Positions 22,895 to 42,156 of a stretch of DNA of 64,000 nucleotides are shown here, piece after piece; position 1 is the stretch's first letter, and every line of letters starts with the position of its first letter. This DNA is from Seonamhaeicola sp. ML3 (GTDB taxonomy: Bacteria; Bacteroidota; Bacteroidia; Flavobacteriales; Flavobacteriaceae). The translations under genes and the position numbers were made by a program. The notes beneath the pieces are model-generated. The model saw nothing but the letters and a program-made list of their open reading frames with translations, had not been told where the DNA came from and searched no databases. Where the stretch lies: positions 2,542,001 through 2,606,000 of the forward strand of contig NZ_CP096884.1 in assembly GCF_023273855.1 (NCBI RefSeq), given 5' to 3'.

Positions 22895-24724
22895 ATGGCG
22901 GGGAATCGTAATTCATTAGATCAAAATACTTTTGAGAGATTACGGCGTTTATACATTATTGCATTAAGTACTATTGCGCTTTCTGTAATATTCAGTCAGC
23001 TTCTTATTAGAAATCACCTAAAAAATCAAGAAAGTGATTCTCGTGTAATTAATGTTGCGGGTAGGCAAAGAATGTTAAGCCAAAAGCTAACAAAAGAAAT
23101 ACTTTCGCTATCCACCGAAAGTAATTTTTTAGAGCGAGGTGAAATTAAAAATAGTTTAGAGCAAACTTTAGCGCTTTGGGGAAATTCTCATATTGCCCTG
23201 CAGAACGGAAGTGACAGTCTCGGTCTACCTGGGAAAAACAGTAAGGTGGTATCTGGAATGTTTAATGACATAAACCCCACATATGATGTTATTAAAGAAG
23301 CTTCAGAAAGCATAATAAAAGAAATAGAAGCGTCTTCATCTGTAAGTGTAAAAAAACTATCAGAGGATATAGAAAAAGTAAAATTGAGCGAGGGCGACTT
23401 TTTAGTAAAAATGGATGCCATTGTAAATCAGTACGACTTGGAAGCAGAAGAGCGTGTGGCCTGGCTCAGAAAGCTTGAAATGTTTCTAACAGCGTTTACA
23501 CTATTGCTACTTCTTGCCGAGTTTCTATTTATATTTTGGCCTACAGCCAAGACTGTAAAGAATAGTTTATCAGAACTCATTCTAGCTGAAAAAAGAGCTA
23601 AGGAAATGGCATATAATGCCGATGTTTTGAGTGAAGCCAAGGAAAAATCCATTAGAGAGTTAAGGGCTTTAAGTCATGCTATGGATGAGACGTTGTTATT
23701 TGCTCGGATTTCACCCGAGGGTATTATTCTACACATGGGTAAAAAGTTTTCTAAACTATTTAAACTAAGTAGGTTTAACACTGCAGAAAATTTTACTAAA
23801 GTTCTTTCTATCCAACCTAACGAGCAAGAGGTAATTGAGGAAATCATTTCGAAACATAAAAAAATAGGTTGGCAAGGAGAGGTAAAAGCAACAAATAAGG
23901 AGGGAGAAGATATTTGGTTAGAAATGTCTGTTATTCCTTTTAACCCTGTTGGAGAGCGCTCAGAACTTTTGATAATAGCCTCGGATATAACCAAACGAAA
24001 AGCTGGGCAATTGGAAATTGAACGGTTAACGAAGCAAAGTTTTGAGGAGAAAATGAATCAGCAAAAAATTGTTTCAAGTAAAATTATAGAGAACCAAGAA
24101 AAAGAACAAAACAGAATTGCAAAAGATGTTCATGACGGCATCGGGCAAATGCTTACGGGTCTAAAATATAATTTAGAAAGTATCGATATTTCAGACATTG
24201 ATAAAACTGCTACAAAAATTGAACATTTAAAAGAATTAGCAGCTAACATAATTAAAGGGGTTAGAACAGCAACGTTTAATTTAACGCCTCCAGAGTTAGC
24301 TGACCATGGTATAGTGCCCGCCTTAACCAAATTAACTCAGGAATTAGCTAAGTTAACTGGTAAGGAAATATTGTTATTTAATAAAACAGATTTTGATGGG
24401 AGGCTAGATTCGCTCAAAGAAATCAATATTTACAGAATTACACAGGAGGCTATCAATAATGCCATAAAATATGCAGATTCTACTCATATTATAGTATCGT
24501 TATCAACTAGTAAAAATATGTTAAGTATAGTGATTGATGATAATGGCAAAGGATTTGACCCAAATAAGATAGTAAGTGTTAAGAATGGAGATGGCGGTAT
24601 GGGAATGACCTTTATGAGAGAACGTATAAAGTATATAAACGGACGTCTTTTCCTGCATTCAGAACCAGGTAAGGGCACGAGGGTAACCTTGAATATTCCA
24701 TTTTCAAATAATGAAGTTTCATGA
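22895..24724 (+). CDS. NarX-like sensor histidine kinase with PilJ-type sensor domain
   Basis: A 609-residue membrane kinase. TM1 is about 18-38. The periplasmic helical domain begins with VINVAGRQRMLSQKLTKE, the PilJ/NarX P-box-type signature linked to nitrate/nitrite binding. TM2 is about 195-215. A PAS domain spans about 262-370, then the HisKA_3 dimerisation motif EQNRIAKDVHDGIGQML with phospho-acceptor His413, and a HATPase_c domain (NIYRITQEAINNAIKYA, DDNGKGFDP, GMGMTFMRERI). It is the likely partner of the LuxR-type regulator at 25159, giving a NarXL-like system for the nitrite/nitrate genes around it. Its stop overlaps the Rid gene start (ATGA). Confidence 0.92.
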   Translation: MAGNRNSLDQNTFERLRRLYIIALSTIALSVIFSQLLIRNHLKNQESDSRVINVAGRQRMLSQKLTKEILSLSTESNFLERGEIKNSLEQTLALWGNSHIALQNGSDSLGLPGKNSKVVSGMFNDINPTYDVIKEASESIIKEIEASSSVSVKKLSEDIEKVKLSEGDFLVKMDAIVNQYDLEAEERVAWLRKLEMFLTAFTLLLLLAEFLFIFWPTAKTVKNSLSELILAEKRAKEMAYNADVLSEAKEKSIRELRALSHAMDETLLFARISPEGIILHMGKKFSKLFKLSRFNTAENFTKVLSIQPNEQEVIEEIISKHKKIGWQGEVKATNKEGEDIWLEMSVIPFNPVGERSELLIIASDITKRKAGQLEIERLTKQSFEEKMNQQKIVSSKIIENQEKEQNRIAKDVHDGIGQMLTGLKYNLESIDISDIDKTATKIEHLKELAANIIKGVRTATFNLTPPELADHGIVPALTKLTQELAKLTGKEILLFNKTDFDGRLDSLKEINIYRITQEAINNAIKYADSTHIIVSLSTSKNMLSIVIDDNGKGFDPNKIVSVKNGDGGMGMTFMRERIKYINGRLFLHSEPGKGTRVTLNIPFSNNEVS

Positions 24725-25104
24725 TGAAAAAGCGTATAAGTTCGGGTTCTACATTTGAAGATGCTATTGGTTATTCCAGAGCTATAGTTCGTGGAGACTG
24801 GGTGTTTATTTCTGGTACAACAGGTTATAACTATGATACAATGACTATAAGCAACGATGTGGTAGATCAGGCAGAGCAATGTTTTGTAAATATTATTAGT
24901 ACTTTGGAAAAGGCTAATGCCACTCTCAGCGATATAGTTAGGGTAACATATATTTTTCCGAATACTTCAGATTTTGAATTGTGTTGGCCCGTTTTTAAAA
25001 AATACTTAGGAAATGTAAAGCCCGCAGCAACTATGATTTCTGCTGGTTTGGCTAATACTAAAATGAAAGTTGAAATTGAGGTTACTGCCTTAATAAACAG
25101 TTGA
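24721..25104 (+). CDS. Rid/YjgF-family protein lacking the catalytic Arg
   Basis: 127 residues with the Rid fold (SGTTGYN, QAEQCFVNIISTLEKANATLSDIVRVTYIF, VEIEVTALI). RidA proper hydrolyses reactive enamine/imine intermediates using Arg105 in a PARS context. Here the equivalent segment reads KPAATM, with Ala103 where Arg is expected, so classic imine deaminase activity is doubtful; it is probably another Rid subgroup. It overlaps the kinase stop by 4 nt and lies directly before the regulator gene, splitting a two-component pair, so a link to nitrogen signalling is possible. Confidence 0.85.
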   Translation: MMKKRISSGSTFEDAIGYSRAIVRGDWVFISGTTGYNYDTMTISNDVVDQAEQCFVNIISTLEKANATLSDIVRVTYIFPNTSDFELCWPVFKKYLGNVKPAATMISAGLANTKMKVEIEVTALINS

Positions 25105-25105
25105 T

Positions 25106-25121
25106 TACGTATAAATACTTA
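25106..25121. promoter_or_regulatory. 7-2-7 inverted repeat upstream of the response regulator
   Basis: TACGTATAAATACTTA, identical over 16 bp to 25949-25964 and similar to 19327-19342. It begins one base after the Rid-gene stop and ends 8 bp before a -7 element, the position expected for an activator or autoregulation. Confidence 0.6.
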
Positions 25122-25129
25122 TTTTTTTA

Positions 25130-25137
25130 TACATTTG
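25130..25137 (+). promoter_or_regulatory. Candidate -7 element of the response regulator promoter
   Basis: TACATTTG matches TAnnTTTG and lies 22 nt (from its last base) before the regulator ATG, so the gene can be transcribed separately from the upstream operon. Confidence 0.55.
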
Positions 25138-25158
25138 CTGTAGAATTATAATTTGTTT

Positions 25159-25821
25159 ATGGCTAAAATTAAAGTCGTGCTAGCAGACGACCATGAATTG
25201 GTTAGAGATGGTATTAAAGCACTTTTAGAAGATCAGAATGAAATCGAGGTAATCGATGAGGCTTCTAACGGAAAAGAGGCTCTTGAAGTAATAAAAAGAA
25301 ATACTCCAAATGTACTTATTGTAGATATCAGAATGCCAGAGATGAACGGAATTGATGTCGTTAGAGCCATCAGTGCCAGCGGTATCAATGTTAAAACTTT
25401 GGTTTTATCAATGCATGATTCTGAAGAATACGTGGTGCAGTCTATTCAAGCTGGCGCCGATGGTTATTTGTTAAAAGGAGCTAGTAAAGACGAATTTTTA
25501 AAAGCGCTAAACAAAGTAGCTGAAGGTGGAAAATATTTTACTGGAGACGTATCGGCTATCATAATGAATAATTTTGTAAATGGTACAACCCCATCACCCG
25601 AAACCAAAACAACTCCGGCCAACTTACCTTTTAAACTAACCAAAAGAGAAAAGCAAATACTTGGTCTGGTGTTGGAACTTAAAAACAACAAAGATATTGC
25701 TGATGAATTACAAATTAGTAAACGTACAGCAGAGGTGCATCGCTTCAATTTAATGAAAAAGTTGGAAGTCTCAAACCTAAAAGAACTCACGGACAAAGCA
25801 AGGGAATATCAACTGATTTAG
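25159..25821 (+). CDS. NarL/LuxR-family response regulator
   Basis: 220 residues from the ATG at 25159 (a TTG two codons upstream is less likely). Receiver domain 1-120 with VVLADDHE, phospho-acceptor Asp56 in VDIRMPEMNG, and the conserved Lys in YLLKGA. LuxR-type HTH at about 150-212 (LTKREKQILGLVLELKNNKDIADELQISKRTAEVHRFN). It probably takes phosphate from the PilJ-type kinase and controls nirB, itself and the unit at 25991 through the shared 7-2-7 repeat, including one at its own promoter. Confidence 0.92.
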   Translation: MAKIKVVLADDHELVRDGIKALLEDQNEIEVIDEASNGKEALEVIKRNTPNVLIVDIRMPEMNGIDVVRAISASGINVKTLVLSMHDSEEYVVQSIQAGADGYLLKGASKDEFLKALNKVAEGGKYFTGDVSAIIMNNFVNGTTPSPETKTTPANLPFKLTKREKQILGLVLELKNNKDIADELQISKRTAEVHRFNLMKKLEVSNLKELTDKAREYQLI

Positions 25822-26482: not shown

Positions 26483-29400
26483 ATGATGAATAAAGAAGTG
26501 AAAACAACATGTTCATATTGTGGTGTAGGATGTGGAATTGTAGTAAAGAAAGACAATAATAACAAGGTTGTTGTAGAGGGAGATAAAGACCACCCTGTTA
26601 ATAAGGGTATGTTGTGCTCCAAAGGTAGAAATTTACATTATGTTGTAAACGATACTTCTGATAGGATTTTATATCCCGAAATGCGCTGGAGTAAATCTCA
26701 TCCACGCGAACGTGTAAGTTGGGATACTGCTTTAGATAGAGCGGCGAGCGTATTCAAATCTATAATCAAAAAGCATGGTCCGGATAGTGTAGGGTTTTAT
26801 GTTTCTGGACAAAGCCTTACAGAGGAATACTATATTGCCAATAAGCTAACAAAAGGTTTTCTAGGAACAAACAACATAGATACAAATTCTAGATTATGTA
26901 TGAGTTCTGCCGTTGTAGGCTATAAAAAAACGTTTGGTGAAGATAGTGTACCTATTTCTTATGCCGATATTGAATTAGCAGATAGTTTCCTAATCACTGG
27001 GGCTAATCCGGCTTGGTGTCATCCTATTTTATTCCGAAGATTAGAAAAACATAAGGAAGAAAATCCCGATGTAAAAATCATTGTTGTAGATCCTCGTAAA
27101 ACAGATACAGCTAAGTTCGCCGATTTGCATTTACAAATTTTACCGGGTACAGACGTAATTCTATATAACGCCATAGGCCGCAGATTATATGAAAGTGGAT
27201 TGATAGATGAGGACTTTATAAAAAATTATACAGACGGATTTCAAGCCTATAAAGAGCAGATATTTTCAACAAAAATAAGTAAGGCAGCAAAATTATGTGG
27301 AATAGATGAAAAGGATATCAGAAAAGCAGCTGATATCATCGGGCTTTCTAAAGGGTTTATAAGCATGTGGGCTATGGGTCTTAACCAAAGTGTGGTTGGT
27401 GTTAATAAGAATGTAGCCCTTTTAAACCTTTCTTTAATTACGGGACAGGTGGGAAAACCTGGTTCAGGTCCATTTTCGCTAACTGGCCAACCCAATGCTA
27501 TGGGTGGGCGAGAGGTTGGAGGTATGGCTAACCTTTTAGCTGTTCACAAAGATTTAATGAATGAAGAGCATAGAAGAGAAGTAGCTCAGTTTTGGGGTGT
27601 TGAAAGAATAAACCCAAAACCAGGATTAACTGCAACTGAAATGTTCGATGCTCTAGAATCTGGTGAATTAAAAGCCATTTGGATAGCTTGTACTAATCCC
27701 TTGGTAAGTTTACCAAATACCAATCGTATTGAAAAAGCTGTTAAAAATGCAAAGTTTGTAGTCGTTCAAGATATATCTCACAAAGCAGATACAGTTAAGT
27801 TCGCCGATTTACTTTTACCTGCCGCTGGATGGTTAGAAAAAGAAGGGGTTATGACTAATTCTGAGAGACGAATTTCATATCTACCTAAAGAAGTAGACCC
27901 GCCAGGAGAGGCAAGACCAGATGTAGAAATATTTTGTGATTTTGCGCAGCGCATGGGGTTCCGAGGTTTTAACTATGGTGCCACAGAAGAGATTTATGAC
28001 GAATACTGCGCTATGACAAAAGATACCAATATAGATGTCTCTTACCTAAACTACGATAGGTTAAAGAACGAAGGTACATTTCAATGGCCAGTAAATGAGT
28101 ATAGACATAAAGGAACCCCGAGGTTATTTGAGGATAAAGTTTTCTATACACCATCCAAAAAAGCGATTTTCAATGTAGCTTCAACTATTGAGAATACCTC
28201 TGTGCTTCCTAATCCCGAATATCCTTTGATATTAACTACAGGAAGGGTTAGGGATCAATGGCATACCATGACCAAAACTGGTAAAGTGTCTCGATTAAAG
28301 ACGCATTACCCAAAACCTGTTTTGGAAATTAATCCTGTTGATGCTTATTTGTATAAAATTAAGGATGGCGATATAACAGATATAGTAGGTGAAAATGGAA
28401 AAGTGAGGGTGCGTGCAAAGGTTACCGAAGAAATTAAAAAGGGCGTTGTTTTTCTACCAATGCATTGGGGTAAACAACTTCAAAACGATTTAAATCGGGC
28501 AAATAACTTAACAAATACCCATGTAGATCCTGTTTCTAAAGAACCCGATTTTAAGTTTACAAGAGTAGCAGTATTCAAATACGAAAAGCCAAAAGAAAAG
28601 ATTCTTATAGCTGGTGCCGGAGCAGCATCATTCCGTTTTATTCAGGATTACAGAGAGCATAATGAAAAAGATGAAATTCATGTGTTTTCAAAAGAACCAA
28701 ATTTATTTTACAATAGAGTATTGCTGCCAGAATATGTTACTGAAGAATTAACATGGGAGCAACTATTAAAAATCAAAAAAATAGAGTTAGATAAACTCAA
28801 AGTTCATTTACACCCAGAAACTTTAATAACTAAAGTAAATTCTAAAGAAAAAAGTGTAATCGACAATAAAGGGAATTTACACACTTTTGATAAGCTCATA
28901 CTTGCAACTGGTAGTAGAGCGTTTATTCCAAAAGATGTTCAAATCGATCTTCCTGGACGCTTTACTATGCGTAATAAAAGTGATGCCGATAGTTTCAAAA
29001 GCTATTTGGACGACACTGGTTTGCCTCCAGAGGAACAACATGTAGCTATTGTTGGTGGTGGTTTATTGGGATTAGAATTAGCAGCCGCTCTTAAACATAA
29101 AAATGTAAAAGTTACTATAATTCAGAGAGCATCTCGTTTAATGGAGAGGCAGTTAGATAAAGTATCAAGTAAATTGTTGGCGCTCGATGTACAAGAACGA
29201 GGCATTCAAATTTATTTTGATAATGAGGTTAGTACAGTCTTTGATGATGATGAAACGGGCGATTTAAATATCACGTTAAAAAGTGGGAAGTTAATTACTG
29301 CAAATGCAATTGTATATGCTATTGGAACAATACCTAATATTGAAATAGCTAGAGAAAGTGGTGTAAAATGCGGAAGAGGTGTTGTTGTAAATCAGCATTT

Positions 29401-30004
29401 ACAATCTTCCAATCCAGATATTTTTGCAATTGGAGAAATTGCAGAGTATAAGAATCAGTTATTTGGAATTACATCGGCAGCAGAAGAACAGGCTACTATT
29501 TTAGCCAATTTTATTGCAGGTGATATTAGTAGTGCCTACGATGGTTCTGTATTAATGAATATTTTAAAATTTAATGATTTAAGTCTTTGTAGTATAGGGG
29601 ATATTAATGTGCCAGAAAACGATTTAAGCTATGAGGAAGTTGTTTTTACAGATATTTCGAAACGATACTACAAGAAGTGTATAGTAAAAGATGACTTGTT
29701 GATAGGAGCTGTTTTAATGGGAGACAAGAGCGAGTTTGCAGAATTTAAAACGCTTATAGGAAGTAAGATTGAAATGTCTGAAAAGCGAGATACTCTTTTA
29801 AGAGGGGCGTCTAATGACAAACCTGTTATTGGTAAGTTAATTTGTTCCTGCAGTCAAGTTGGAGACGGTAATGTTAAGGAAGCCATTGCTAAAGGATGTA
29901 CCGATTTCACAGAGTTATGTAAACAAACAGGTGCAGGTTTAGGTTGTGGTAGTTGTAAAACTGAAGTAAGAGAAATTCTTTATAATTCTAAAGTATTAGT
30001 ATAA
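26483..30004 (+). CDS. Assimilatory nitrate reductase fused to a NirB-type FAD/BFD diaphorase
   Basis: 1173 residues. Residues 1-700 form a NasA/NapA-class molybdopterin reductase: N-terminal [4Fe-4S] ligands in CSYCGVGC and CSKGR, GQSLTEEYYIANK, NTNSRLCMSSAV (Mo-ligand region), FSLTGQPNAMGGREVGG, and a dinucleotide-binding C-domain (TTGRVRDQWHTMT). From about 706 it becomes an FAD/NAD(P) oxidoreductase like the front of NirB (ILIAGAGAASFRF, VAIVGGGLLGLELA, IFAIGEIAEY). Residues 1120-1165 form a BFD [2Fe-2S] domain (ICSCSQVG, GLGCGSC). The fusion could couple NAD(P)H oxidation directly to nitrate reduction in the cytoplasm. It overlaps the next gene by one base. A tandem ATG at 26486 is an alternative start. 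Confidence 0.93.
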   Translation: MMNKEVKTTCSYCGVGCGIVVKKDNNNKVVVEGDKDHPVNKGMLCSKGRNLHYVVNDTSDRILYPEMRWSKSHPRERVSWDTALDRAASVFKSIIKKHGPDSVGFYVSGQSLTEEYYIANKLTKGFLGTNNIDTNSRLCMSSAVVGYKKTFGEDSVPISYADIELADSFLITGANPAWCHPILFRRLEKHKEENPDVKIIVVDPRKTDTAKFADLHLQILPGTDVILYNAIGRRLYESGLIDEDFIKNYTDGFQAYKEQIFSTKISKAAKLCGIDEKDIRKAADIIGLSKGFISMWAMGLNQSVVGVNKNVALLNLSLITGQVGKPGSGPFSLTGQPNAMGGREVGGMANLLAVHKDLMNEEHRREVAQFWGVERINPKPGLTATEMFDALESGELKAIWIACTNPLVSLPNTNRIEKAVKNAKFVVVQDISHKADTVKFADLLLPAAGWLEKEGVMTNSERRISYLPKEVDPPGEARPDVEIFCDFAQRMGFRGFNYGATEEIYDEYCAMTKDTNIDVSYLNYDRLKNEGTFQWPVNEYRHKGTPRLFEDKVFYTPSKKAIFNVASTIENTSVLPNPEYPLILTTGRVRDQWHTMTKTGKVSRLKTHYPKPVLEINPVDAYLYKIKDGDITDIVGENGKVRVRAKVTEEIKKGVVFLPMHWGKQLQNDLNRANNLTNTHVDPVSKEPDFKFTRVAVFKYEKPKEKILIAGAGAASFRFIQDYREHNEKDEIHVFSKEPNLFYNRVLLPEYVTEELTWEQLLKIKKIELDKLKVHLHPETLITKVNSKEKSVIDNKGNLHTFDKLILATGSRAFIPKDVQIDLPGRFTMRNKSDADSFKSYLDDTGLPPEEQHVAIVGGGLLGLELAAALKHKNVKVTIIQRASRLMERQLDKVSSKLLALDVQERGIQIYFDNEVSTVFDDDETGDLNITLKSGKLITANAIVYAIGTIPNIEIARESGVKCGRGVVVNQHLQSSNPDIFAIGEIAEYKNQLFGITSAAEEQATILANFIAGDISSAYDGSVLMNILKFNDLSLCSIGDINVPENDLSYEEVVFTDISKRYYKKCIVKDDLLIGAVLMGDKSEFAEFKTLIGSKIEMSEKRDTLLRGASNDKPVIGKLICSCSQVGDGNVKEAIAKGCTDFTELCKQTGAGLGCGSCKTEVREILYNSKVLV

Positions 30005-31443
30005 TGGAAGAACGTTATAGGTTAATGATAAATGGTGGGGTACTTTCTCCAGCAGAGTTAAAATATATATGTGAAGCAGCTGAAGGGTTGGGGCTAGATG
30101 CAATATCATTTGGATCTAGACAGGATATTATATTTCCAGAGAAAATAGATGAATCAAAATTCAATCAGTTTGAAAAGATAACGTTTGTTAAACCTAAGCG
30201 AGATAAGGTAGAGAATATTGCGTCATCTTATGTTTCTGCAGAGATTTTACCAAGTACTTCATGGTTAACCAGTGACAAGTATCTATACATACTAGAGCAA
30301 TTTAAGTATAATCCTAGATTACGAATTAATGTTATAGATCCTAAACAAAGATTAGTACCTTTATTTACTGGTAATGTTAATTTTATAGCCTCTAATCATG
30401 AAGACTATTGGTATTTATATTTAAGACTACCAGGTTGGAAAAAGACACTTATGTATCCTGCGCTAATTTTTAGTTGGGATATGGATAAGGTTGAAATGGC
30501 GATAGAGGAAGTTCTTATTGAAGAACCCGAAACCATAGAGATGGTTTTCGAGTTGGTAAATGATGCAATAGATACTAACAATAGAACTGTAGATAAGCCG
30601 CTGGATGTGCCTTTTTACCCTTTCCCTTATTATGAAGGTATGAATCGTATAGGTACAGACCGCTATTGGTTAGGTCTTTATTGGAGAAATAATAGATACG
30701 ATATAGATTTCTTAAAAGCCATGTGCGACTTATGTTCTGAAAATAAAATAGGGAAGATATCTATAACACCCTGGAAATCGTTTATAGTAAAAGGAATTCC
30801 TGAGAGAAACAAGCTGCAGTGGGAAAAGCTTTTAGGAAAGTTTGGTATTAATGTAAGACACTCTATGTTGGAGATGAATTGGCATGTACCGGTAAACGAT
30901 AAAGAGGCTCTGAACCTAAAAAAATATCTGGTAACAAATTTTGATCAGAACGATATTAGTACCTATGGTTTAACATTTGGTATAACAAGTTATGACAGCG
31001 ATACTTATAATTTTACTTCTATTGTTGTAGAAAAGAATAGACAGCCAGATAATTTAGGAGACTTTACCATCAGGGATACATACAACTTGTTATATGCCAA
31101 AAATTTCGACCCTAATACAAATGAGTATATCATGCATGTACAAGATGTTGATAAAATAGAACTCCCCGGTTTGTTAATGGAATTGAGTAAGTTGTATTTT
31201 GAACAATTAGGAAACGAACGAGAAGATGAAGAACAGCAATCTATTCAAAACGAATCATCAGAAGAAATCGTTCATCAGTGTTCAGAATGTTTAACAGTAT
31301 ACAGTGAGGTTTACGGTGATTTGACACAAGGTATCGATCCAAATACAAGTTTTGATGATCTTCCTGATAGTTATTGTTGTTCGCTTTGTGAATCACCAAA
31401 AAGTAGTTTCGTTAAGAAAACATTCAATAAAGAGGTCCACTAA
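30004..31443 (+). CDS. Nitrite/sulfite-reductase-like ferredoxin-fold protein with C-terminal rubredoxin
   Basis: A 479-residue protein. The N-terminal part (for example MINGGVLSPAELKYICEAAE) resembles the ferredoxin-like half domains of nitrite/sulfite reductases, but I see no siroheme/4Fe-4S Cys set. Residues about 423-470 form a rubredoxin domain with Cys426, Cys429, Cys459 and Cys462 and the typical FDDLPDSY spacer. It starts at the last base of the nitrate reductase gene (TAATG), so the two are translationally coupled. It probably carries electrons to or from that enzyme. Cytoplasmic. The exact role is not known to me. Confidence 0.8.
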   Translation: MEERYRLMINGGVLSPAELKYICEAAEGLGLDAISFGSRQDIIFPEKIDESKFNQFEKITFVKPKRDKVENIASSYVSAEILPSTSWLTSDKYLYILEQFKYNPRLRINVIDPKQRLVPLFTGNVNFIASNHEDYWYLYLRLPGWKKTLMYPALIFSWDMDKVEMAIEEVLIEEPETIEMVFELVNDAIDTNNRTVDKPLDVPFYPFPYYEGMNRIGTDRYWLGLYWRNNRYDIDFLKAMCDLCSENKIGKISITPWKSFIVKGIPERNKLQWEKLLGKFGINVRHSMLEMNWHVPVNDKEALNLKKYLVTNFDQNDISTYGLTFGITSYDSDTYNFTSIVVEKNRQPDNLGDFTIRDTYNLLYAKNFDPNTNEYIMHVQDVDKIELPGLLMELSKLYFEQLGNEREDEEQQSIQNESSEEIVHQCSECLTVYSEVYGDLTQGIDPNTSFDDLPDSYCCSLCESPKSSFVKKTFNKEVH

Positions 31444-31768
31444 CTTCATTTTATTAATACCCTAAAAAAGATCGATACAACCCTTTGTACTGGCCTCGAA
31501 CTTTAAACGTTTGTGTTTTTCCTGTAAATTTCGTATATTCTATGAAAGGTAAATTTCATCGACAAAAAACACATTGATTCTTTTTTAATAGAATAAAACT
31601 TACAATAAAACACACTTTATCCCTTATTTAGATTGATTATAAAAACCATTCGTCGACACAAAAACGTCATTCGTCGACACTTTTAATGGTTCTAGCGAAA
31701 TATGTACGTTGTTTAATACCGTTCAGATTAATTTCACATCAAAGCGCAACAAATATTTCAACGTATTT
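31444..31768. other. 325-bp regulatory gap between nitrate and phosphorelay operons
   Basis: No gene seen. It holds the LytTR-like direct repeat (31647-31680), a related half-site TTCATCGACA at 31555-31564, and a weak -7-like TACGTTGT at 31705. The longest frame here starts at 31709 but carries no recognisable protein before the ATG at 31769. No clear terminator follows the upstream gene. Confidence 0.6.
31647..31680. promoter_or_regulatory. Direct repeat with LytTR-type spacing upstream of the phosphorelay operon
   Basis: CATTCGTCGACAC occurs at 31647-31659 and 31668-31680, identical over 13 bp and exactly 21 bp apart. LytTR regulators such as AgrA bind pairs of 9-bp direct repeats with 21-bp centre spacing. 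The last gene of the operon, at 36842, encodes a LytTR regulator, so autoregulation is likely. Confidence 0.65.
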
Positions 31769-32179
31769 ATGAAGAATCTAAACATATTATTAGTAGAAGA
31801 CGACATGATTGAACTTATGAAGTTTAATCGGGTAGTCAGTTCTTTAGAAGCAAAACATAACGTTATTGAAGCTAACAATGGAGAGGATGCACTTAAAGTT
31901 TTAGAGGATAAAACAAATTTGCCAGATATAATATTGTTAGATTTGAATATGCCCAAGATAAATGGTCTTGAATTTTTGCAGATATTAAAGAGTGATGATG
32001 TATTGAAGTATATTCCAGCTATTGTATTAACTACTTCTAATAACGATAAAGACTTAGTTGAGTGTTACAAGATAGGCATAGCGGGTTATGTTCTCAAGCC
32101 TCTCAAGTATGAGGAGTATGTTTCTAAAATCGAGAACCTTTTGTCTTATTGGAGTTTAAACGAATTAAAAAAACATTAA
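31769..32179 (+). CDS. Single-domain receiver (CheY-like) response regulator
   Basis: 136 residues from the ATG at 31769; the open frame extends to 31709 but the receiver fold begins at MKNLNILLVEDD. Phospho-acceptor Asp58 in LLDLNMPKING; conserved Thr in LTTSNND and Lys in YVLKPLKYEEY. With no output domain it is likely an intermediate or sink in the phosphorelay encoded by this operon. Its stop directly abuts the H-NOX ATG. Confidence 0.93.
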   Translation: MKNLNILLVEDDMIELMKFNRVVSSLEAKHNVIEANNGEDALKVLEDKTNLPDIILLDLNMPKINGLEFLQILKSDDVLKYIPAIVLTTSNNDKDLVECYKIGIAGYVLKPLKYEEYVSKIENLLSYWSLNELKKH

Positions 32180-32719
32180 ATGAAAGGTATTGTATTTTCA
32201 GAGTTTCTTGAATTAGTTGAGGAAAAGTTTGGACTGGAGATGGTTGATAAAATTATAAGTCAATCTGAACTTAAATCAGGTGGCGCATATACATCTGTTG
32301 GGACTTACGAATTTTCAGAAATGCTTCAGTTGCTTAAAAACTTAAGCAATAATACAGGTGTTTCCATAGATGGATTATTGCTCACTTACGGTGAACATTT
32401 TTTTCAAATATTGGAGCGTGATTATTCAGTAATGTTAGAAAGTTACAACGACCCTATAGAAATGCTTTCTTCAATTGAAAACCATATTCATGTTGAGGTT
32501 CGTAAAATATATCCTGATGCTGAACTCCCAACTTTTAAGGTTATCGAAAAGACTAAGAGAAAACTTATTATGCTATACAAATCTAGTAGGGCAATGCATC
32601 ATTTTGGACTAGGTTTAATGAACAAGACATTCGAGTATTTTGATTCATCTGCCGAGATTGTTTTGGAAAAACTTAAGGAAGATGGAACAGAAGTTAAGTT
32701 TTTAATCAACAAGAACTAA
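32180..32719 (+). CDS. H-NOX heme nitric oxide/oxygen-binding sensor protein
   Basis: A 179-residue single-domain H-NOX (HNOB) protein. The start MKGIVFSEFLELVEEKFG, the segment GGAYTSVGTYEFSEM, the proximal heme ligand His104 (HIHVEVRKIYP) and the YxSxR motif that holds the heme propionates (Y133, S135, R137) are all present. I see no obvious distal-pocket Tyr like that of O2-binding anaerobe proteins, so a selective NO sensor is favoured. Stand-alone H-NOX proteins act on a neighbouring kinase; the PAS kinase 4 bp downstream is the obvious partner. Cytoplasmic. Confidence 0.95.
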   Translation: MKGIVFSEFLELVEEKFGLEMVDKIISQSELKSGGAYTSVGTYEFSEMLQLLKNLSNNTGVSIDGLLLTYGEHFFQILERDYSVMLESYNDPIEMLSSIENHIHVEVRKIYPDAELPTFKVIEKTKRKLIMLYKSSRAMHHFGLGLMNKTFEYFDSSAEIVLEKLKEDGTEVKFLINKN

Positions 32720-32723
32720 ACTC

Positions 32724-34322
32724 ATGGACCAAGAGAAAATTGAAATACTTGAAAGGGCTCTAAAAAGAGAACGAGCTGCTCGACGAGATGCCGAACGGAT
32801 ACTCGAAGAAAAATCTGCCGAGCTTTACAGTGCCAATCAAAGGCTAGAAAAATCATATACAGAACTAGAAGCACTTTTAGATAAGACCGATTCCCAGCTT
32901 CAAGGGGTTTTTGAAAATATTGTCGATGCATACGTTATAATAGATTTAATGGGTAACATTCTTAAAATGAATGATGCAGCAGTAGATTTGTTAGGTTTTG
33001 ATAATACTAAGGAAAATGCAAATTTATTAGAGTTTCCTCCTTATGAAGAAAAGGAAAGGGTGTCTCGATCATTTAAAAATCTCCTAAAGAATGGAGCGAT
33101 TACAGATTTTCAAGTAAAAATAATAACAAAAAAAGGAGAAGAAAAACTTGTACATATAAATGCCAGTATTATACTAGATCAAGGTATTCCAGTTGCTGCT
33201 CAAGGTATTGTAAGGGACATAACCGAAGCTAAAGCCGCAGAACGCCTGTTAAGAGAATCTGATAACAGGTTAAAGGCATTAATGATGAACCTTAAAAACG
33301 GGGTTTTATTAAAAGATGAGAATAAGAGAATCATTCTTGCAAACGAAAAATTCTGTGAGCTTTTTGGAATTGATTACAATCCAGAAAAAATAAAGGGACA
33401 GTACCTTACGTTTCGTGACGATAGGTTTAAGAACCTATTTAAAAATCCCCAGGAGTTTGTTGATCGACTCGAATTGATTGAAACTGCAGGTGAGCATGTT
33501 CTAAGCGATGAGATTCACATGGTAAATGGAAAAATTTTAGAAAGAGATTATATTCCCATTTATCAAGGCGATAATTACCGAGGTCATCTTTGGACCTACA
33601 GAGATATTACAGATCTAAAAAATTTAGAACACCAAAAGGAAAAGTTACTTTCTCAATTAGAGTATAGTAACGAGGAGCTACAAGAATATGCTCATATAGT
33701 TTCTCATGATTTAAAGTCTCCTTTGCGCAGTATTAATGCATTAGTAAGTTGGTTGAAAACCGATAACGAAGATAAATTTGATAAAGTGAGTTTGCAGAAT
33801 CTAGCTCTAATAGAAACTACCATAGAGAAAATGGATAACTTAATATCTGATGTTCTTGAATATTCCAGTATAGGTAGTGATAGTAAAGAGTATGTTCAAG
33901 TCGATTTAAATTCACTTATAAATGATCTCATTCAGTTTTTATATAAACCGGATCATGTAAGTGTTGAAGTGCTTAGTCAATTACCAATTGTAAATGGAGA
34001 TAAAACCAAACTACAGCAATTATTCCAAAACTTAATGAGCAATGCCATAAAGTTTATAGATAAAGCTGAGGGTTTTGTTAAAATTGATGTTGAGGATATT
34101 GGTTCGCATTATAAGTTTTCCATAAAGGATAATGGTATAGGAATTGATGAAAAATACCATTCTAAAATTTTTAAGGTTTTTCAATCTGTCAACAAGCGAA
34201 AGGATTCAACAGGTATTGGTTTGTCTATTGTGCAAAAAATAGTTGAGTTACATGATGGAGAAATTTGGTTAGATAGCAAACTTAACGAAGGTACAACCTT
34301 CTTTTTCACACTAAAAAAGTAA
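32724..34322 (+). CDS. PAS-domain histidine kinase, probable H-NOX partner
   Basis: A 532-residue soluble kinase with no membrane segment. The N-terminal coiled coil (1-60, ALKRERAARRDAERILEEKS) is followed by a first PAS (about 60-170, ending DITEAKAAERLL) and a second PAS/PAC (about 175-300, ending YRDITDLKNLE). The HisKA domain has His328 in HIVSHDLKSPLRS, followed by HATPase_c (LFQNLMSNAIKF, KDNGIGID, STGIGLSIV). The coiled-coil start resembles kinases encoded next to H-NOX genes. It probably feeds the HPt and LytTR proteins downstream. Confidence 0.92.
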   Translation: MDQEKIEILERALKRERAARRDAERILEEKSAELYSANQRLEKSYTELEALLDKTDSQLQGVFENIVDAYVIIDLMGNILKMNDAAVDLLGFDNTKENANLLEFPPYEEKERVSRSFKNLLKNGAITDFQVKIITKKGEEKLVHINASIILDQGIPVAAQGIVRDITEAKAAERLLRESDNRLKALMMNLKNGVLLKDENKRIILANEKFCELFGIDYNPEKIKGQYLTFRDDRFKNLFKNPQEFVDRLELIETAGEHVLSDEIHMVNGKILERDYIPIYQGDNYRGHLWTYRDITDLKNLEHQKEKLLSQLEYSNEELQEYAHIVSHDLKSPLRSINALVSWLKTDNEDKFDKVSLQNLALIETTIEKMDNLISDVLEYSSIGSDSKEYVQVDLNSLINDLIQFLYKPDHVSVEVLSQLPIVNGDKTKLQQLFQNLMSNAIKFIDKAEGFVKIDVEDIGSHYKFSIKDNGIGIDEKYHSKIFKVFQSVNKRKDSTGIGLSIVQKIVELHDGEIWLDSKLNEGTTFFFTLKK

Positions 34323-34325
34323 AAG

Positions 34326-35453
34326 ATGAAGATTGTACAATTAAGAAAGCTTAAAGGCCAGGATTGGCAAAGTGTAACACCTTTTATTGAACTAAAAGAA
34401 CCCTTGGTAATGGTTTTTGGTGATAGGAAAGAATTTGAAGAGCCCAGAATATACAAAGCCATTGAAAAGTTTTTTCCAAAAGGACATGTTGTATTTGCAT
34501 CTTCTTCGGGGAATGTAACCTCAAATTCAATAGATGAGGATTGTATTACCATAACTGCGGTTGAGTTCGAACGAAGTGAATTCAAGGTAAGAACCATAAA
34601 TTTAAATGATACCGAACTTAATAGCTACAAAGCTGGAATGGAGTTGGTAAACAAATTGCCAAAGGACAAACTAAAGTATATCATGGTTTTATCTGATGGT
34701 ACTTTTGTTAACGGTAGTGAATTGACCAGAGGAATGAATTTTGTGGTAGACAATCATGTTTTGATAACAGGTGGTCTTTGTTCTGATGATTATAGATTTC
34801 AAAGAACAATGGTTTCGTATAATGAAAATCCAAAAGATGGAGAAATTGTTGGGATTGGGTTTTACGGTGACACTCTAGAGGTGGCTTCATCTACAGAGTC
34901 AGGATGGATGCCTTTTGGTGTTGAGAGAACAGTAACCAAATCTGTGGGTAACATATTATACGAACTAGATAATAAACCTGCATTGAATATTTATCAAAAA
35001 TATATTGGTGATTTATCTAAAAACATCTCAGCGGCATCAATGAATTATCCTCTTGGAGTTCAGGAAGATGATCAATATTATCCGAGAACTATATTAAATA
35101 TTAATAAGGATTATAATGCTATGTTTTTTGCGGGAGATATCCCTGCTAACTCGAAAGTTCAGTTCATGATGACTAATCCGGCCGAGTTAATTGGAGCCAG
35201 TATACAAACGGCAAAACAAGCACGGGAGAAAATGATTAATGAGCCTAAACTAGCTATGTTTTTTAGTGGTTTGGGAAGAAAACAATTTTTAGACCAACGT
35301 ACTATCGAGGAGGTTCTTGAGGTAAGAGATACGATTGGTAAAGACGTAATAATTAGTGGGTTTTATTCCTATGGAGAAATAGCCCCTAATAATGAAGAGA
35401 ATATGTGCAAGTTGCATAATCAATCTGTAGCACTAACTTTAATAAGTGAATAA
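34326..35453 (+). CDS. FIST-domain sensor protein (NosP-like)
   Basis: 375 residues containing FIST_N (about 20-215: LVMVFGDRKEFEEP, VVFASSSGNV, LSDGTFVNGSELTRGM, ITGGLCSDDYRF) and FIST_C (about 220-355: GWMPFGVERTVTKS, ALNIYQKYIG, FFSGLGRKQFL). FIST is a small-ligand sensor domain. NosP, a heme NO sensor of other bacteria, is a FIST protein encoded beside its kinase, and the next gene matches that kinase type. Heme binding here is inference; no ligand can be assigned from sequence alone. Its TAATG overlap with the kinase gene indicates coupling. Confidence 0.88.
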   Translation: MKIVQLRKLKGQDWQSVTPFIELKEPLVMVFGDRKEFEEPRIYKAIEKFFPKGHVVFASSSGNVTSNSIDEDCITITAVEFERSEFKVRTINLNDTELNSYKAGMELVNKLPKDKLKYIMVLSDGTFVNGSELTRGMNFVVDNHVLITGGLCSDDYRFQRTMVSYNENPKDGEIVGIGFYGDTLEVASSTESGWMPFGVERTVTKSVGNILYELDNKPALNIYQKYIGDLSKNISAASMNYPLGVQEDDQYYPRTILNINKDYNAMFFAGDIPANSKVQFMMTNPAELIGASIQTAKQAREKMINEPKLAMFFSGLGRKQFLDQRTIEEVLEVRDTIGKDVIISGFYSYGEIAPNNEENMCKLHNQSVALTLISE

Positions 35454-36514
35454 TGAATTCATTATTGAAAAATCAGGTTAAGCGATTTCTAAGCAGTAAA
35501 AATGTATCTAACGAAGATTTAATGGCTTTTCTAGATGCGGTAAATAACTCCTATAATAAATTTGACGAACAGTATCTTATACAACAAAGAGCTTTACTGG
35601 TTAGTTCTGATGAGCTTAACGAAGCTAATAAGGTTTTAAGGCATGAGTCTAATATCCAAAGTGCACTTATTGATAAGTTAAACAAGGTAGTAGAATCCCT
35701 GAATTTTGGGGAGATGTCTAAAGAAGCTAAAGCGTCTCAAAAAATGGCTCCAGAGAATCTTGATGGTTTATCCTTGGCAGAGTTTATAGATAAGCAAACC
35801 CAGGAGATTGTTGAAATGAACAAGCAACGAGAAAAACTCATGGGTGAATTAGAACGTCAAAACGAAGAACTAAGTAATTACGCTTATCTGGTTTCCCACG
35901 ATTTAAAATCTCCACTTAGAAGTATAGATGCTCTTACTGCATGGTTAAACGAAGAGGCAGAAACAAATAAAAAAGAGAATACCTCAGAGAATTTAAAACT
36001 TATTAGAGATAACGTTGAAAAAATGGATAATCTAATTACAGGTATTCTAGATTATTCTACTGTAAATAAAAACGAAAGTTTAACAAGTGTAATAAATTTA
36101 GAGAGTTATATTAAAGAAATAATCAATAGTATATCCATACCGGAACACATAGATATTAAGGTACTAAATGCGTTGCCTAAAATAAATGCAGATAAGCCAA
36201 GAATTAAGCAATTATTTGAAAATTTAATTGATAATGCAATTAAATATAATGATAAGGAAAAAGGCTTTATTGAGATTGGCGTTGAAGAAGAGACTATGCA
36301 CTGGAAGTTTCATATACGTGATAATGGTAAGGGCATAGAGAAAGATTACTTCGATAAGATTTTTAAACCATTTCAAAAATTAGAAAATAATCCAAATGCA
36401 ACAGGTATTGGTCTATCAATTGCAAAAAAGATAATTAACGCTTACGGTGGTAAGATATGGCTAGAGTCTAAGCTTGGTATTGGAACTACTTTTTATTTTA
36501 CCATAAAAAAATAA
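35453..36514 (+). CDS. FIST-associated histidine kinase (NahK-like)
   Basis: A 353-residue soluble kinase. The N-terminus (LLKNQVKRFLSSKNVSNEDL, then QRALLVSSDELNEANKVLR) is the pattern found on kinases paired with FIST/NosP proteins. A coiled coil (about 115-140) leads to HisKA with His149 in LVSHDLKSPLRS, then HATPase_c (LFENLIDNAIKY, DNGKGI, TGIGLSIAKKI). Its HisKA is very like that of the H-NOX-linked kinase 1.7 kb upstream (both HDLKSPLRSI), so the two may act on the same HPt or form mixed dimers. Confidence 0.9.
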   Translation: MNSLLKNQVKRFLSSKNVSNEDLMAFLDAVNNSYNKFDEQYLIQQRALLVSSDELNEANKVLRHESNIQSALIDKLNKVVESLNFGEMSKEAKASQKMAPENLDGLSLAEFIDKQTQEIVEMNKQREKLMGELERQNEELSNYAYLVSHDLKSPLRSIDALTAWLNEEAETNKKENTSENLKLIRDNVEKMDNLITGILDYSTVNKNESLTSVINLESYIKEIINSISIPEHIDIKVLNALPKINADKPRIKQLFENLIDNAIKYNDKEKGFIEIGVEEETMHWKFHIRDNGKGIEKDYFDKIFKPFQKLENNPNATGIGLSIAKKIINAYGGKIWLESKLGIGTTFYFTIKK

Positions 36515-36518
36515 TACT

Positions 36519-36836
36519 ATGGAAAAACCTAATTTGTCTTATGTAGAAACCATGTCCAGAGGAGATGAAAGTTTTGTAAAAAAAATAATTGGTGTTATTA
36601 AAGATGAGTTTTCTGGTGAAGTTGAAGAATATAATTCAAACTATAATTCTGAAAATTTTAAACTTGCAGCAGAAAATGTACACAAACTTAAACATAAAAT
36701 TAGTATTTTAGGCCTTGAAAAGAGTTATGCAGTTGCCAATGATCACGAAAATAGCCTTAAGGAAGGTAAAGGTAACCTGCATGAAGACTTCTTGAGTATT
36801 TTACAAATTATTAAGGATTTTCTAGGTACAATTTAA
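36519..36836 (+). CDS. HPt phosphotransfer protein
   Basis: 105 residues, all helical. The HPt signature NVHKLKHKISILGL places the phospho-acceptor at His55. A stand-alone HPt between two kinases and a LytTR regulator supports a multi-step relay: kinase -> receiver -> HPt -> LytTR. It lies 4 bp after the kinase and 5 bp before the regulator. Confidence 0.9.
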   Translation: MEKPNLSYVETMSRGDESFVKKIIGVIKDEFSGEVEEYNSNYNSENFKLAAENVHKLKHKISILGLEKSYAVANDHENSLKEGKGNLHEDFLSILQIIKDFLGTI

Positions 36837-36841
36837 AAGAG

Positions 36842-37561
36842 ATGAATTGCATTATTATAGATGATGAAGCTACAGCAAGAATTATTATTTCTGAATTATG
36901 TTCTCAAATTGGAGGGCTTAATGTTGTAGAAGAGTTTCCTAATGCAATCCAGGCTATTAAATACCTTAATCAGAATCAGGTAGACCTCATATTTCTAGAT
37001 ATTCACATGCCTGATTTTACGGGGTTTGATTTCATACAAACCCTCAAGGATCCTCCAAAGATTATATTAACCACTTCAGACCCGCAATTTGCTATAGATG
37101 CCTTTGAATACGAATGTATAGTAGATTATTTGGTAAAACCAATCAAGCTAGAGCGTTTTGAAAAAGCCATTCATAAACTAAGTACCATTCCTGAAACTGT
37201 TCATAATGAGGAAGCTCCAAGTGTTTCTGCCAAGAAAGATTCATCTGTAGATAATCATTTGTACATCAACATAGACAGGCGTTTAATTAAAATTGAAATA
37301 CCCAGTATTTATTTAGTAGAAGCTAAGGGTGACTATATAAACGTCAAAACAGAACAAGAAAACTACAGGGTGCACTCTTCCTTGAAGAAAATTGAGGAAA
37401 AACTACCCACGGATCTTTTTTTAAAAGTACACAGGTCTTACATAATAAATCTCAAAAAGATTATAGATATTGAGGATAATAGTGTTTTAATAAAAAAAGA
37501 TGTTATCCCAGTTAGTAGGTCTAATAGACCAGAACTAATGAAACGTTTAAACTTACTTTAG
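36842..37561 (+). CDS. LytTR-family response regulator
   Basis: 239 residues. Receiver domain about 1-120 (CIIIDDEATARIII, Asp53 in FLDIHMPDFTG, Lys in YLVKPIKLERF). LytTR DNA-binding domain about 140-237 (LYINIDRRLIKIEIPSIYLVEA, FLKVHRSYIINLKKI). It is the only output regulator of the seven-gene operon. Direct repeats with LytTR spacing lie upstream of this operon (31647) and, more degenerate, just after this gene (37585) in front of the exopolysaccharide locus. Confidence 0.94.
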   Translation: MNCIIIDDEATARIIISELCSQIGGLNVVEEFPNAIQAIKYLNQNQVDLIFLDIHMPDFTGFDFIQTLKDPPKIILTTSDPQFAIDAFEYECIVDYLVKPIKLERFEKAIHKLSTIPETVHNEEAPSVSAKKDSSVDNHLYINIDRRLIKIEIPSIYLVEAKGDYINVKTEQENYRVHSSLKKIEEKLPTDLFLKVHRSYIINLKKIIDIEDNSVLIKKDVIPVSRSNRPELMKRLNLL

Positions 37562-37584: not shown

Positions 37585-37618
37585 TATTCGTCTACACATT
37601 ATGGTCATTTGGACCAAA
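37585..37618. promoter_or_regulatory. LytTR-like site (one good half, one degenerate) before the exopolysaccharide locus
   Basis: TATTCGTCTACAC (37585-37597) matches the 31647 half-site CATTCGTCGACAC at 11 of 13 positions. At +21 bp (37606) there is CATTTGGACC, matching only the first bases. A -7 element follows 27 bp after the site, against 24 bp at the other promoter. Confidence 0.45.
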
Positions 37619-40956: not shown

Positions 40957-42156
40957 ATGGATTCTGTTTTGACTATACTTTATATTGGAAATTCTTCAGA
41001 TTACTTTAAGCCCCTAAAAAAGAAGGATAATGTTGCTTTTTGTGTTCTAGAGAATAGCATTTTAGCTATCAATTATCTTACTTCAAATAATCAAATTGAT
41101 CTTATTATCTGTGATTATAATTTACCAGGAAATAACGGTCTATATCTTTACGATTGGATTAGGGATAATTCAGAGTATAGAAGTACACCTTTCATTTTGT
41201 TGTCCGAAAAATTTGATGATGATGTTTATAAACAGTCCTTTAAAAAAAGGGTGAGTGATTATTATGTTTTAAATACATCCTCTCCTGAAGATATTTACCA
41301 AAGGGCAATGTTTCTATGCGAAAGTAAATCGGTGTCACGTTCGGCAAAACTTCCCGAGCTATCTGAAGTAGAGTATAAAATGCCATTATCTAAGCGTATA
41401 TTCGATATTACAGTAGCTTCTATGGCACTTTTATTAGCGTCGCCATTTTTACTAATTATTTTATTGGCTATTAGGTTGGAGTCTAAAGGGAAAGTCTACT
41501 ACATTTCTAAGCGTGTAGGAAGAAAGACCTTCGATTTTTACAAACTACGCTCTATGAGAACTGGTGCAGATGAGTTGCTGAAAAAACTAGCAAAAGAAAA
41601 AAATCAATACAATACCAAACCGCAAGTTGAAGAACATACAGAAGATGAGCCTTGTCCAAGATGTGCAAAGTTACCAGAGGGAGAAAGTTGTTCACCAATG
41701 ATGTATTTCGACACTTACAGCATATGCGATTATTGGTATAATCATCAAAAAGAAAAAGAAGCGCAAAATAATTCGGCTTTTGTAAAAATTGTTGATGATC
41801 CAAGAATTACCAAAGTAGGAAAGTTTATAAGAAATACAAGTATAGATGAACTGCCTCAGTTAATTAATGTTTTAAAAGGAGACATGTCTATTGTTGGGAA
41901 TAGGCCTTTACCTGTTTATGAAGCAGAATTATTAACAGGAGGTGATATCTCAAAACGATTTTTAGCGCCTCCAGGAATTACTGGTCTCTGGCAAGTAGAA
42001 TTAAGAGGAAGAGGGGGAGATATGTCTGAAGAAGAGCGCATGCGTTTAGATAATGAATATGCCGATCAGTTTAAGGGGAACAATTATTCGTTTTGGTATG
42101 ATATGAAGCTCATATTAAGAACCATACCGGCTTTATTCCAAAAAGATACGGTTTAA
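40957..42156 (+). CDS. Pseudo-receiver fused to a polyprenyl-phosphate sugar phosphotransferase
   Basis: A 399-residue protein. Residues 1-125 have a receiver fold but are degenerate: the usual acidic pair is replaced (LYIGNSSDYF), Asp53 is kept (ICDYNLPGNNG), and the Lys loop reads YYVLNTSSPE. From about 145 it is a WcaJ/PglC-type initiating transferase: membrane segment (KRIFDITVASMALLLASP), YKLRSMRTGADE, SIDELPQLINVLKGDMSIVG, APPGITGLWQVELRGRG. An insert at about 205-275 carries Cys233, 236, 245 and 257, zinc-ribbon-like. It would transfer the first sugar phosphate to undecaprenyl phosphate, under possible signal control. Confidence 0.88.
   Translation: MDSVLTILYIGNSSDYFKPLKKKDNVAFCVLENSILAINYLTSNNQIDLIICDYNLPGNNGLYLYDWIRDNSEYRSTPFILLSEKFDDDVYKQSFKKRVSDYYVLNTSSPEDIYQRAMFLCESKSVSRSAKLPELSEVEYKMPLSKRIFDITVASMALLLASPFLLIILLAIRLESKGKVYYISKRVGRKTFDFYKLRSMRTGADELLKKLAKEKNQYNTKPQVEEHTEDEPCPRCAKLPEGESCSPMMYFDTYSICDYWYNHQKEKEAQNNSAFVKIVDDPRITKVGKFIRNTSIDELPQLINVLKGDMSIVGNRPLPVYEAELLTGGDISKRFLAPPGITGLWQVELRGRGGDMSEEERMRLDNEYADQFKGNNYSFWYDMKLILRTIPALFQKDTV

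Follow-up and report, generated by a model that had tools for sequence, protein, structure and literature searches.

The stretch of DNA analysed here, which we call the window, comprises 64,000 nucleotides from Seonamhaeicola sp. ML3, a member of the Flavobacteriaceae (assembly GCF_023273855.1, contig NZ_CP096884.1, positions 2,542,001 to 2,606,000). At positions 31769-37561 of the window lie seven open reading frames (ORFs), all on the + strand, which encode in order a stand-alone receiver (REC1), an H-NOX protein, a PAS kinase, a FIST protein, a second kinase, an HPt phosphotransfer protein and a REC-LytTR transcription regulator. The gaps between them are 0, 4, 3, -1, 4 and 5 bp, the value of -1 being the overlap of the FIST stop with the start of the kinase gene that follows, and the seven-gene + strand operon of the initial annotation, with genes 0-5 bp apart or overlapping, was borne out by the ORFs, the Pfam domains and these gaps. 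A terminator scan gave 4 candidates, close to the 2.8 expected. We describe here the proteins of this operon, its conservation in related genomes and the putative repeat operator in front of it.

Predicted sensor and relay proteins

The H-NOX protein (32180..32719, + strand) is a haem NO (nitric oxide) sensor by family, and this assignment is well founded: its PF07700 (HNOB) score of 135 bits compares with a curated cut-off of 25.5. The gene is present as a single copy in the 3.47-Mb genome. The residues listed for it in the initial annotation (His104 and Y133/S135/R137), which are the proximal haem ligand and the YxSxR motif, are all present in the window protein, and in an alignment of 99 H-NOX sequences, the window's included, His104, Tyr133 and Ser135 are found in all 99, while position 137 is Arg in 83 and Lys in 16. 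Phe142, five residues past the Arg of the YxSxR motif (F in 71 and L in 28 of the aligned proteins), stands at what we take to be the equivalent of the Tyr140 that holds O2 in O2-binding H-NOX proteins, and this suggests that the protein is selective for NO. The best PDB matches were 6bde_A (E 2e-90) and 6bdd_A (E 1e-89), and 6BDD is the H-NOX of Kordia algicida, a facultative anaerobe (PMC7356049; this and the other PMC articles below are cited for the parts consulted). The Kordia protein (6BDD/6BDE) is thus the closest solved relative; the consulted part of PMC7356049 treats the sensor alone. Residue 71 is Gly in the window protein (Ala in 58, Gly in 28 and Ser in 13 of the 99 aligned). Redox sensing through Cys and zinc, described for H-NOX groups 2-4 (PMC8738867), is unlikely here because the window protein has no Cys; 92 of the 99 aligned proteins have none either.

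The FIST protein (34326..35453, + strand) carries FIST (PF08495, 144 bits) and FIST_C (PF10442, 106 bits) domains, and its gene adjoins that of a kinase without a known sensor domain, which is the context of NosP, the other NO-sensing family to which the initial annotation likened it. Its structure was modelled with a predicted local distance difference test score (pLDDT) of 91.6, and no bacterial FIST structure is among the PDB matches listed for it. The genome holds two FIST genes. The second (genome C1:1914897; locus L063, 8826-11692) overlaps a hybrid kinase with PAS, HisKA, HATPase_c and REC domains, the N-terminus of which is in the style of the operon's FIST-linked kinase; it is possibly a further input.

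The H-NOX-linked histidine kinase (32724..34322, + strand) has two PAS domains followed by HisKA and HATPase_c, with a predicted phospho-acceptor, His328, at the SHDLK motif position. In the FIST-linked histidine kinase (35453..36514, + strand; His149) Pfam recognised HisKA and HATPase_c only and no sensor domain. Neither kinase is a hybrid, as Pfam found no receiver domain in either. Their catalytic cores are 49% identical to each other; 13 other matches in the genome reach 32% at most. Among 174 distinct kinase cores from all loci fetched, which are mostly neighbourhoods of this operon, 163 score at least 177 bits to a window core and 11 score 100 bits or less, with none between. The initial annotation had read the N-terminus of the FIST-linked kinase as that of FIST-associated kinases, and by eye it does resemble that of the kinase beside the genome's other FIST, so this protein combines an N-terminus of that style with the operon's own kind of core. 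The cores cluster by slot in the operon (14 label changes against a shuffled mean of 52.6, with slot labels set by distance that may contain errors), and a single origin of the FIST-linked cores was rejected (approximately unbiased test, p-AU 5e-8) on this quick tree with long branches. The shared core supports a shared partner for both kinases.

The stand-alone receiver REC1 (31769..32179, + strand; PF00072 Response_reg, 80 bits) has Asp58 as its proposed first phospho-Asp acceptor. In alignments filtered by length and at least 40% identity, E10, D11, D58 and K110 of REC1 are found in all 100 sequences and T89 in 98, with Ser in the other 2, while D7, D8, D53 and K99 of the REC-LytTR regulator (36842..37561, + strand; PF04397 LytTR, 75 bits, and PF00072 Response_reg, 67 bits) are found in 95 of 95; both domains of this output regulator were recognised by Pfam, and Asp53 is its acceptor. 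The remaining protein, of 105 amino acids (36519..36836, + strand), matched no Pfam family at E 1e-3 and no NCBIfam model at E 1e-2. Its assignment as an HPt with His55, as the initial annotation had it, is supported by the conservation of His55 in all 93 sequences aligned, the window's among them, and by a predicted four-helix bundle (mean pLDDT 95.2; helices 7-12, 17-43, 47-63, 67-81 and 88-104). The best PDB matches of the model are HPt domains, the match to 3myf_B having a template modelling (TM) score of 0.77 and a Foldseek E of 0.016, with no match at or below 0.001. All parts of a split relay (non-hybrid kinases, a separate receiver, an HPt, an output regulator and their acceptor residues) are therefore present.

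Conservation and exchange of the sensor pairs

The H-NOX gene was present in 29 of 98 genomes, the window's own included, and the 28 H-NOX loci of relatives were compared with the operon. All seven genes in the same order were found at 10 of them, so that the gene order, conservation of which the initial annotation had put forward as a check, does extend beyond this genome; another 11 have a five-gene version, which is the operon without FIST and the FIST-linked kinase, and 7 differ. In two of the 10 seven-gene relatives about 1.2 kb separates HPt from LytTR. Among the differing loci, L045 has all but the LytTR gene, an orthologue of which lies with a REC on another contig; at L044 (genome G055) the FIST match ends at residue 130, with nothing more of the operon after it; and L034, L041, L047, L049 and L061, which belong to other families of the order, do not correspond to this operon. 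The L044 locus is apparently decaying: its H-NOX match contains one flagged stop, and the genome holds no LytTR at more than 40% identity, although a mismatch-free copy of the operator described below has been kept.

A wider sample was taken from named genomes as the best 80 of 97 loci found with the window H-NOX, and it is hence biased to close kin. At 76 of these an H-NOX is followed downstream by an HPt match, with a FIST of the window's type (FIST_A) at 44, none at 25, a divergent FIST at 5, and 2 (L165 and L173) unassigned by BLAST, of which L165 is a FIST by Pfam. The other four loci (L111, L114, L129 and L132) are cut by contig ends, have another arrangement or lack an HPt match. On a tree of REC, H-NOX, HPt and LytTR with these 76 rows, the presence and absence of the FIST pair needs 19 changes, and the starred branches force at least 9 changes of the FIST_A label; the tree was made by a quick method, with 18 of 73 inner branches open, and does not distinguish gain from loss. 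FIST presence is weakly clustered on it (for the label 'none', 93 of 500 shuffles were as low). The FIST gene and its kinase are, on this comparison, an exchangeable cassette. Because locus L114 (1242-9234) holds a REC-FIST-kinase-HPt-LytTR operon beside a REC-H-NOX-kinase-LytTR operon, each sensor pair can stand apart from the other. Between these two operons lies a gene that is STAS-like by eye, and the acidic pair of the second REC looks altered. Related operons also occur with neither sensor: L174 has REC, a 673-residue kinase in which PAS-like repeats can be made out by eye, HPt and LytTR, with no H-NOX or FIST; L175 has a bare kinase core; and L190 consists of REC and LytTR only.

A putative direct-repeat operator and the genes behind it

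A putative LytTR operator lies at 31646..31685 on the + strand, 84-123 bp before the REC1 start codon, and consists of a perfect 10-bp direct repeat, TTCGTCGACA (31649-31679), with a start-to-start distance of 21 bp. This repeat has one match in the window and none in 100 shuffles, and the operator reaches 48 bits on a matrix whose training set excluded the window. We compared 102 upstream regions (24 from relatives, 77 from named genomes and the window's; some are from the same genomes, and there are 96 distinct best-site strings). The best site had at most 4 mismatches in 22 positions in 75 of them, against 0 of 2040 mononucleotide-shuffled regions, and at most 5 mismatches in 83, against 8 of the 2040 shuffles, with the start mostly 108-122 bp before REC. 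New here are this conserved direct repeat of 21-bp period in front of the operon and the recurrence of the site, described below, before downstream genes for STAS proteins, polysaccharides and surface proteins. LytTR repeats have a spacing of two helical turns. Paired direct repeats fit the LytTR regulator of the operon as the probable binder; AgrA, a LytTR regulator, binds two direct repeats (PMC4227749). A single operator-like half-site at 37587..37596 (+ strand, 1 mismatch), immediately past the operon and before ugd, scores near 0 as a full site and was not counted; it is possibly a relic.

The same site was sought across 48 genomes, where copies with at most 2 mismatches anywhere were found in 22 of the 25 genomes with an orthologue of this LytTR (at least 61% identity) and in 2 of the 23 without (hand count), these two being G055, with the operon remnant mentioned above, and G060, with a LytTR relative at 51%. 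A matrix trained on 78 operon-upstream sites, the window's excluded, was used to scan, in each of the 25 genomes, as much as 40 kb downstream of LytTR and, in 22, as much as 20 kb upstream. The downstream 932,058 bp gave 57 sites that score above 14 bits, spread over 23 of the 25 genomes. None lies inside an ORF as called by our own ORF caller, although 90.7% of the sequence is coding, and 49 of the 57 stand 10-118 bp before a start. With the threshold at 10 bits there were 71 downstream sites, in 25 of 25 genomes. The upstream scan of 432,171 bp gave no site at either 14 or 10 bits. Sites precede 10 of 14 copies of a 92-residue STAS protein, 6 of 7 of a surface protein of the type IX secretion system (T9SS) type, 8 of 17 of a group-1 glycosyltransferase, 7 of 18 of a receiver-glycosyltransferase (REC-GT2; 4 of these 18 are weak matches), 4 of 18 of a flippase-like protein, 2 of 4 Ugd-like dehydrogenases, 1 of 3 Wzc-like proteins and 2 of 3 of a protein of 126-131 residues; two further surface proteins carry a T9SS sorting domain. 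A small number of sites stand before unrelated genes, and overall the genes behind the sites are, by their predicted functions, an exopolysaccharide (EPS) and surface programme.

In the window an EPS-type cluster extends on the + strand from 38121 past the end at 64000 to about genome C1:2608813. It was delimited from ORFs and a Pfam scan of 9 proteins, the others being read by eye, and includes Ugd, an epimerase, a REC, a REC-sugar transferase, an outer-membrane protein, Wzc-like, flippase-like and polymerase-like proteins and glycosyltransferases. Six of the nine scanned proteins were above the Pfam cut-off (38121 Ugd, 40536 REC, 40957 REC with sugar transferase, 42165 OEP, 50700 glycosyltransferase and 58919 gluconate dehydrogenase subunit), two were just below it (42925 GNVR and 46700 Wzy_C), and 45320 had no match. 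Direct control of these EPS genes by LytTR may at most be a candidate role, as the only good site beyond the operon's lies before a gene at the far end of the cluster; Ugd and Wzc do have sites in G040, where a cluster of this kind is also present. The protein at 40957-42156 joins a bacterial sugar transferase to a receiver domain; in relatives a fusion of a receiver to a glycosyltransferase-2 domain stands in places behind operators, and such glycosyltransferases may be controlled by phosphorylation. Past the EPS cluster, a 126-residue protein (L062, 8985-9365) is encoded behind the genome's only other strong operator found; its relatives are 44% identical in G006, with a site, and 50% in G002, with none above threshold.

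H-NOX and NosP have been described mostly with cyclic di-GMP (c-di-GMP) outputs (PMC8738867). Such an output was set aside here: no GGDEF or EAL match was found in the genome, which is 99.9% complete, and Pfam found no GGDEF, EAL or HD-GYP domain in the seven operon proteins, to which the search for HD-GYP was confined. Of 14 control genomes, 8 were positive in the GGDEF search and 6 in the EAL search. The lack of GGDEF and EAL in the genome calls for a different output, for which the LytTR regulon is the candidate.

Upstream of the operon, at 26483-31443, a 1173-residue molybdopterin oxidoreductase (nitrate reductase-like) fused to an NADH/FAD and BFD part is followed by a 479-residue protein with a nitrite/sulfite reductase half-domain and rubredoxin. 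At 7 of the 28 loci of relatives this pair is found no more than 5 kb upstream of the operon, and it is a possible local source of NO. The nitrate cluster also holds, at 22895-25821, a PilJ-PAS-HisKA_3 kinase and a LuxR-type regulator of NarX/NarL-like make-up, with a 127-residue ORF between them.

A proposed split phosphorelay with exchangeable inputs

The system is real, conserved and well delimited, and its notable features are the swappable front end, the split relay within one operon and the readable operator. Directly visible in the sequences are the gene set and its conservation, the acceptor residues, the kinship of the two kinase cores, and the operator with the genes behind it. We consider it fairly probable, judging from sequence comparison, that it works as a multi-input, split four-step phosphorelay that sets the transcription of a polysaccharide and cell-surface regulon. 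In the chain that we infer, from the ligands and the direction of the NO effect to the route of the phosphate and the LytTR protein as binder, NO binding by H-NOX would change the activity of the PAS kinase, and FIST, as an optional second input, would act likewise on its own kinase, the cue being NO or something related and haem-linked. The two kinases would phosphorylate REC1 at Asp58, from which the phosphate would pass to His55 of HPt and on to Asp53 of LytTR. The latter would bind the repeats of 21-bp period before its own operon, which would amount to autoregulation, and in relatives also those before downstream STAS, glycosyltransferase, flippase-like, sugar-nucleotide and secreted surface-protein genes. 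The stand-alone receiver is read as the first receiver because neither kinase is a hybrid. A non-hybrid kinase does not usually hand its phosphate straight to an HPt, from His to His, and with no receiver in either kinase this route was set aside. Of the initial proposal that two inputs are integrated by one HPt and one transcription regulator, the shared relay has good support from the comparison of genomes, while direct entry at the HPt gives way to a probable route through REC1.

Several observations weigh against this reading. No site with 5 mismatches or fewer was found in 19 of the 102 upstream regions. Good sites number no more than two in the genome of the window itself, the operon's and one at C1:2608889 before the 126-residue gene; none precedes Ugd or the Wzc-like gene, and neither of the two immediately precedes an EPS gene. 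G006 and G024 carry their sites with at most 2 mismatches only on contigs other than the operon's. At 3 mismatches or fewer, a reversed control pattern gave 17 matches in the 48 genomes against 105 for the real one, so many of the 3-mismatch matches are background, and at 10 bits 2 of the 71 downstream sites fall inside ORFs. The queries for the target classes were genes already behind a site, and many copies lack one: 9 of 17 group-1 glycosyltransferases, 11 of 18 REC-GT2 copies and 14 of 18 flippase-like copies are without one. An HPt match is absent from some related operons (L175, L190 and the second module of L114). NCBI's NosP model, NF041558, gives the window FIST 63 bits (E 2e-17) against an equivalog cut-off of 450. 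As to novelty, FIST near hnox has already been reported statistically (PMC8738867); the initial remark that no operon with both families and a LytTR output had been described holds to the extent that we found no description of an H-NOX/FIST/HPt/LytTR operon in the openly licensed PMC literature (subscription work could differ), and the proximity of the two sensor genes as such is not new.

The alternative closest in weight to our reading, and one to which we give rather less than an even chance, leaves the relay and its output standing and has FIST sense labile haem, a metabolite or another ligand in place of NO, in which case the operon would integrate NO with a second, different cue. By its low NF041558 score the window FIST is a NosP homologue and not a NosP equivalog, and because its best PDB fold is that of human FBXO22, at a TM score of 0.57, no haem site could be modelled. 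At L165, moreover, the divergent FIST_B in the same slot differs at the residues aligned to C361 and H364, and a title cited in PMC12570481 includes the words 'NosP detection of heme' (the title alone). Against this stand the invariance of C361 and H364 in 53 of 53 aligned operonic FISTs, with both residues present in the genome's second FIST too, and the report that the NosP family, which belongs to the same superfamily, senses NO through haem and acts on a kinase encoded in the same operon (PMC12570481). NO sensing by the window FIST is therefore a plausible hypothesis, and of the two NO inputs of the initial annotation the H-NOX one stands by family while the FIST falls short of NCBI's cut-off for a NosP equivalog.

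It is less likely that REC1 lies outside the chain, with the kinases phosphorylating LytTR directly and HPt and REC1 serving as a phosphate sink, or REC1 as a separate contact output. We think this improbable, given that the acceptor residues of REC1 are all kept across its alignment and that the kinases lack a receiver, as a four-step chain needs, even though L175 pairs REC, a bare kinase and LytTR without an HPt match, L190 has REC and LytTR only, and the LytTR regulator AgrA is phosphorylated directly by AgrC (PMC6769237). Much more remote is the idea that the operators belong to another LytTR regulator, this operon being only one of its targets. The genomes do hold further LytTR paralogues at 34-51% identity, but the good sites track this orthologue in the count of genomes with and without it, they lie downstream of this LytTR gene and not upstream, and G011 and G053, which have this LytTR without H-NOX, keep sites. 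That the seven genes are chance neighbours which share an operon without working together is scarcely credible: only the optional nature of the FIST and kinase pair speaks for it, and it is rejected by the conservation of the order across many genomes, with the near-zero gaps and the shared kinase core also against it.

Our preferred split phosphorelay resembles several known systems in part. In Vibrio fischeri (HnoX-HahK, the SypF HPt or LuxU, SypG), H-NOX acts on a kinase, an HPt passes the signal to the regulator of the syp polysaccharide cluster and several inputs converge (PMC12369376). HahK has its own receiver, whereas the receiver of the window operon is a separate protein, and here the output is a LytTR regulator, with the FIST/kinase pair and the regulator gene inside the operon. 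SypG is presumably not a LytTR regulator. The NosP-kinase systems (NosRPK, NosP-VpsS, NahK) likewise have a FIST encoded in one operon with a kinase in which no sensor domain is recognised; in NosK some 130 residues precede the DHp domain (PMC12570481), and in the window kinase about 120 are without a Pfam match. They feed c-di-GMP enzymes or LuxU (PMC12570481), whereas the window kinase stands in a LytTR relay in a genome without GGDEF or EAL, and the window FIST is far below the NosP cut-off. The Shewanella and Vibrio networks of HnoK, HnoB, HnoC and HnoD likewise join an H-NOX/kinase pair to several downstream receivers, with an output chiefly in c-di-GMP turnover; neither the window operon nor its genome has a GGDEF or EAL gene. 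A link of NosP to the H-NOX pathway is also known in S. oneidensis. In V. cholerae NosP crosses the H-NOX pathway (PMC8738867).

A parallel to the proposed route itself is the Spo0F-Spo0B-Spo0A relay of Bacillus, in which several kinases phosphorylate one stand-alone receiver, from which a phosphotransferase leads to a DNA-binding regulator. Both kinases of the window would converge in this way on the same receiver, in the order kinase, REC1, HPt, LytTR; the differences are that the phosphotransferase here is HPt-like, that all parts lie in one operon and that the inputs are haem-protein partners.

A broader and more tentative proposal, which we hold with less confidence than the relay, is that the Flavobacteriaceae possess a 'sensor-socket' phosphorelay. 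Its fixed back end would be the stand-alone REC, HPt, LytTR and the operator of 21-bp period, running an EPS and secreted-surface programme by transcription, here in a genome that has no c-di-GMP enzymes of the GGDEF/EAL type; the cassettes of its swappable front end would be the H-NOX pair, the FIST-A pair, the FIST-B pair, a larger PAS-type kinase or a bare kinase; and the two haem proteins together would act as a two-range NO gate on matrix production. In the literature consulted, the control of biofilms by NO is mainly through c-di-GMP and the Vibrio relays. If our reading is true, these operons would provide a route free of c-di-GMP from NO to matrix genes in a widespread family of marine bacteria, and a natural series of sensor swaps in which the exchange of signalling inputs may be studied.

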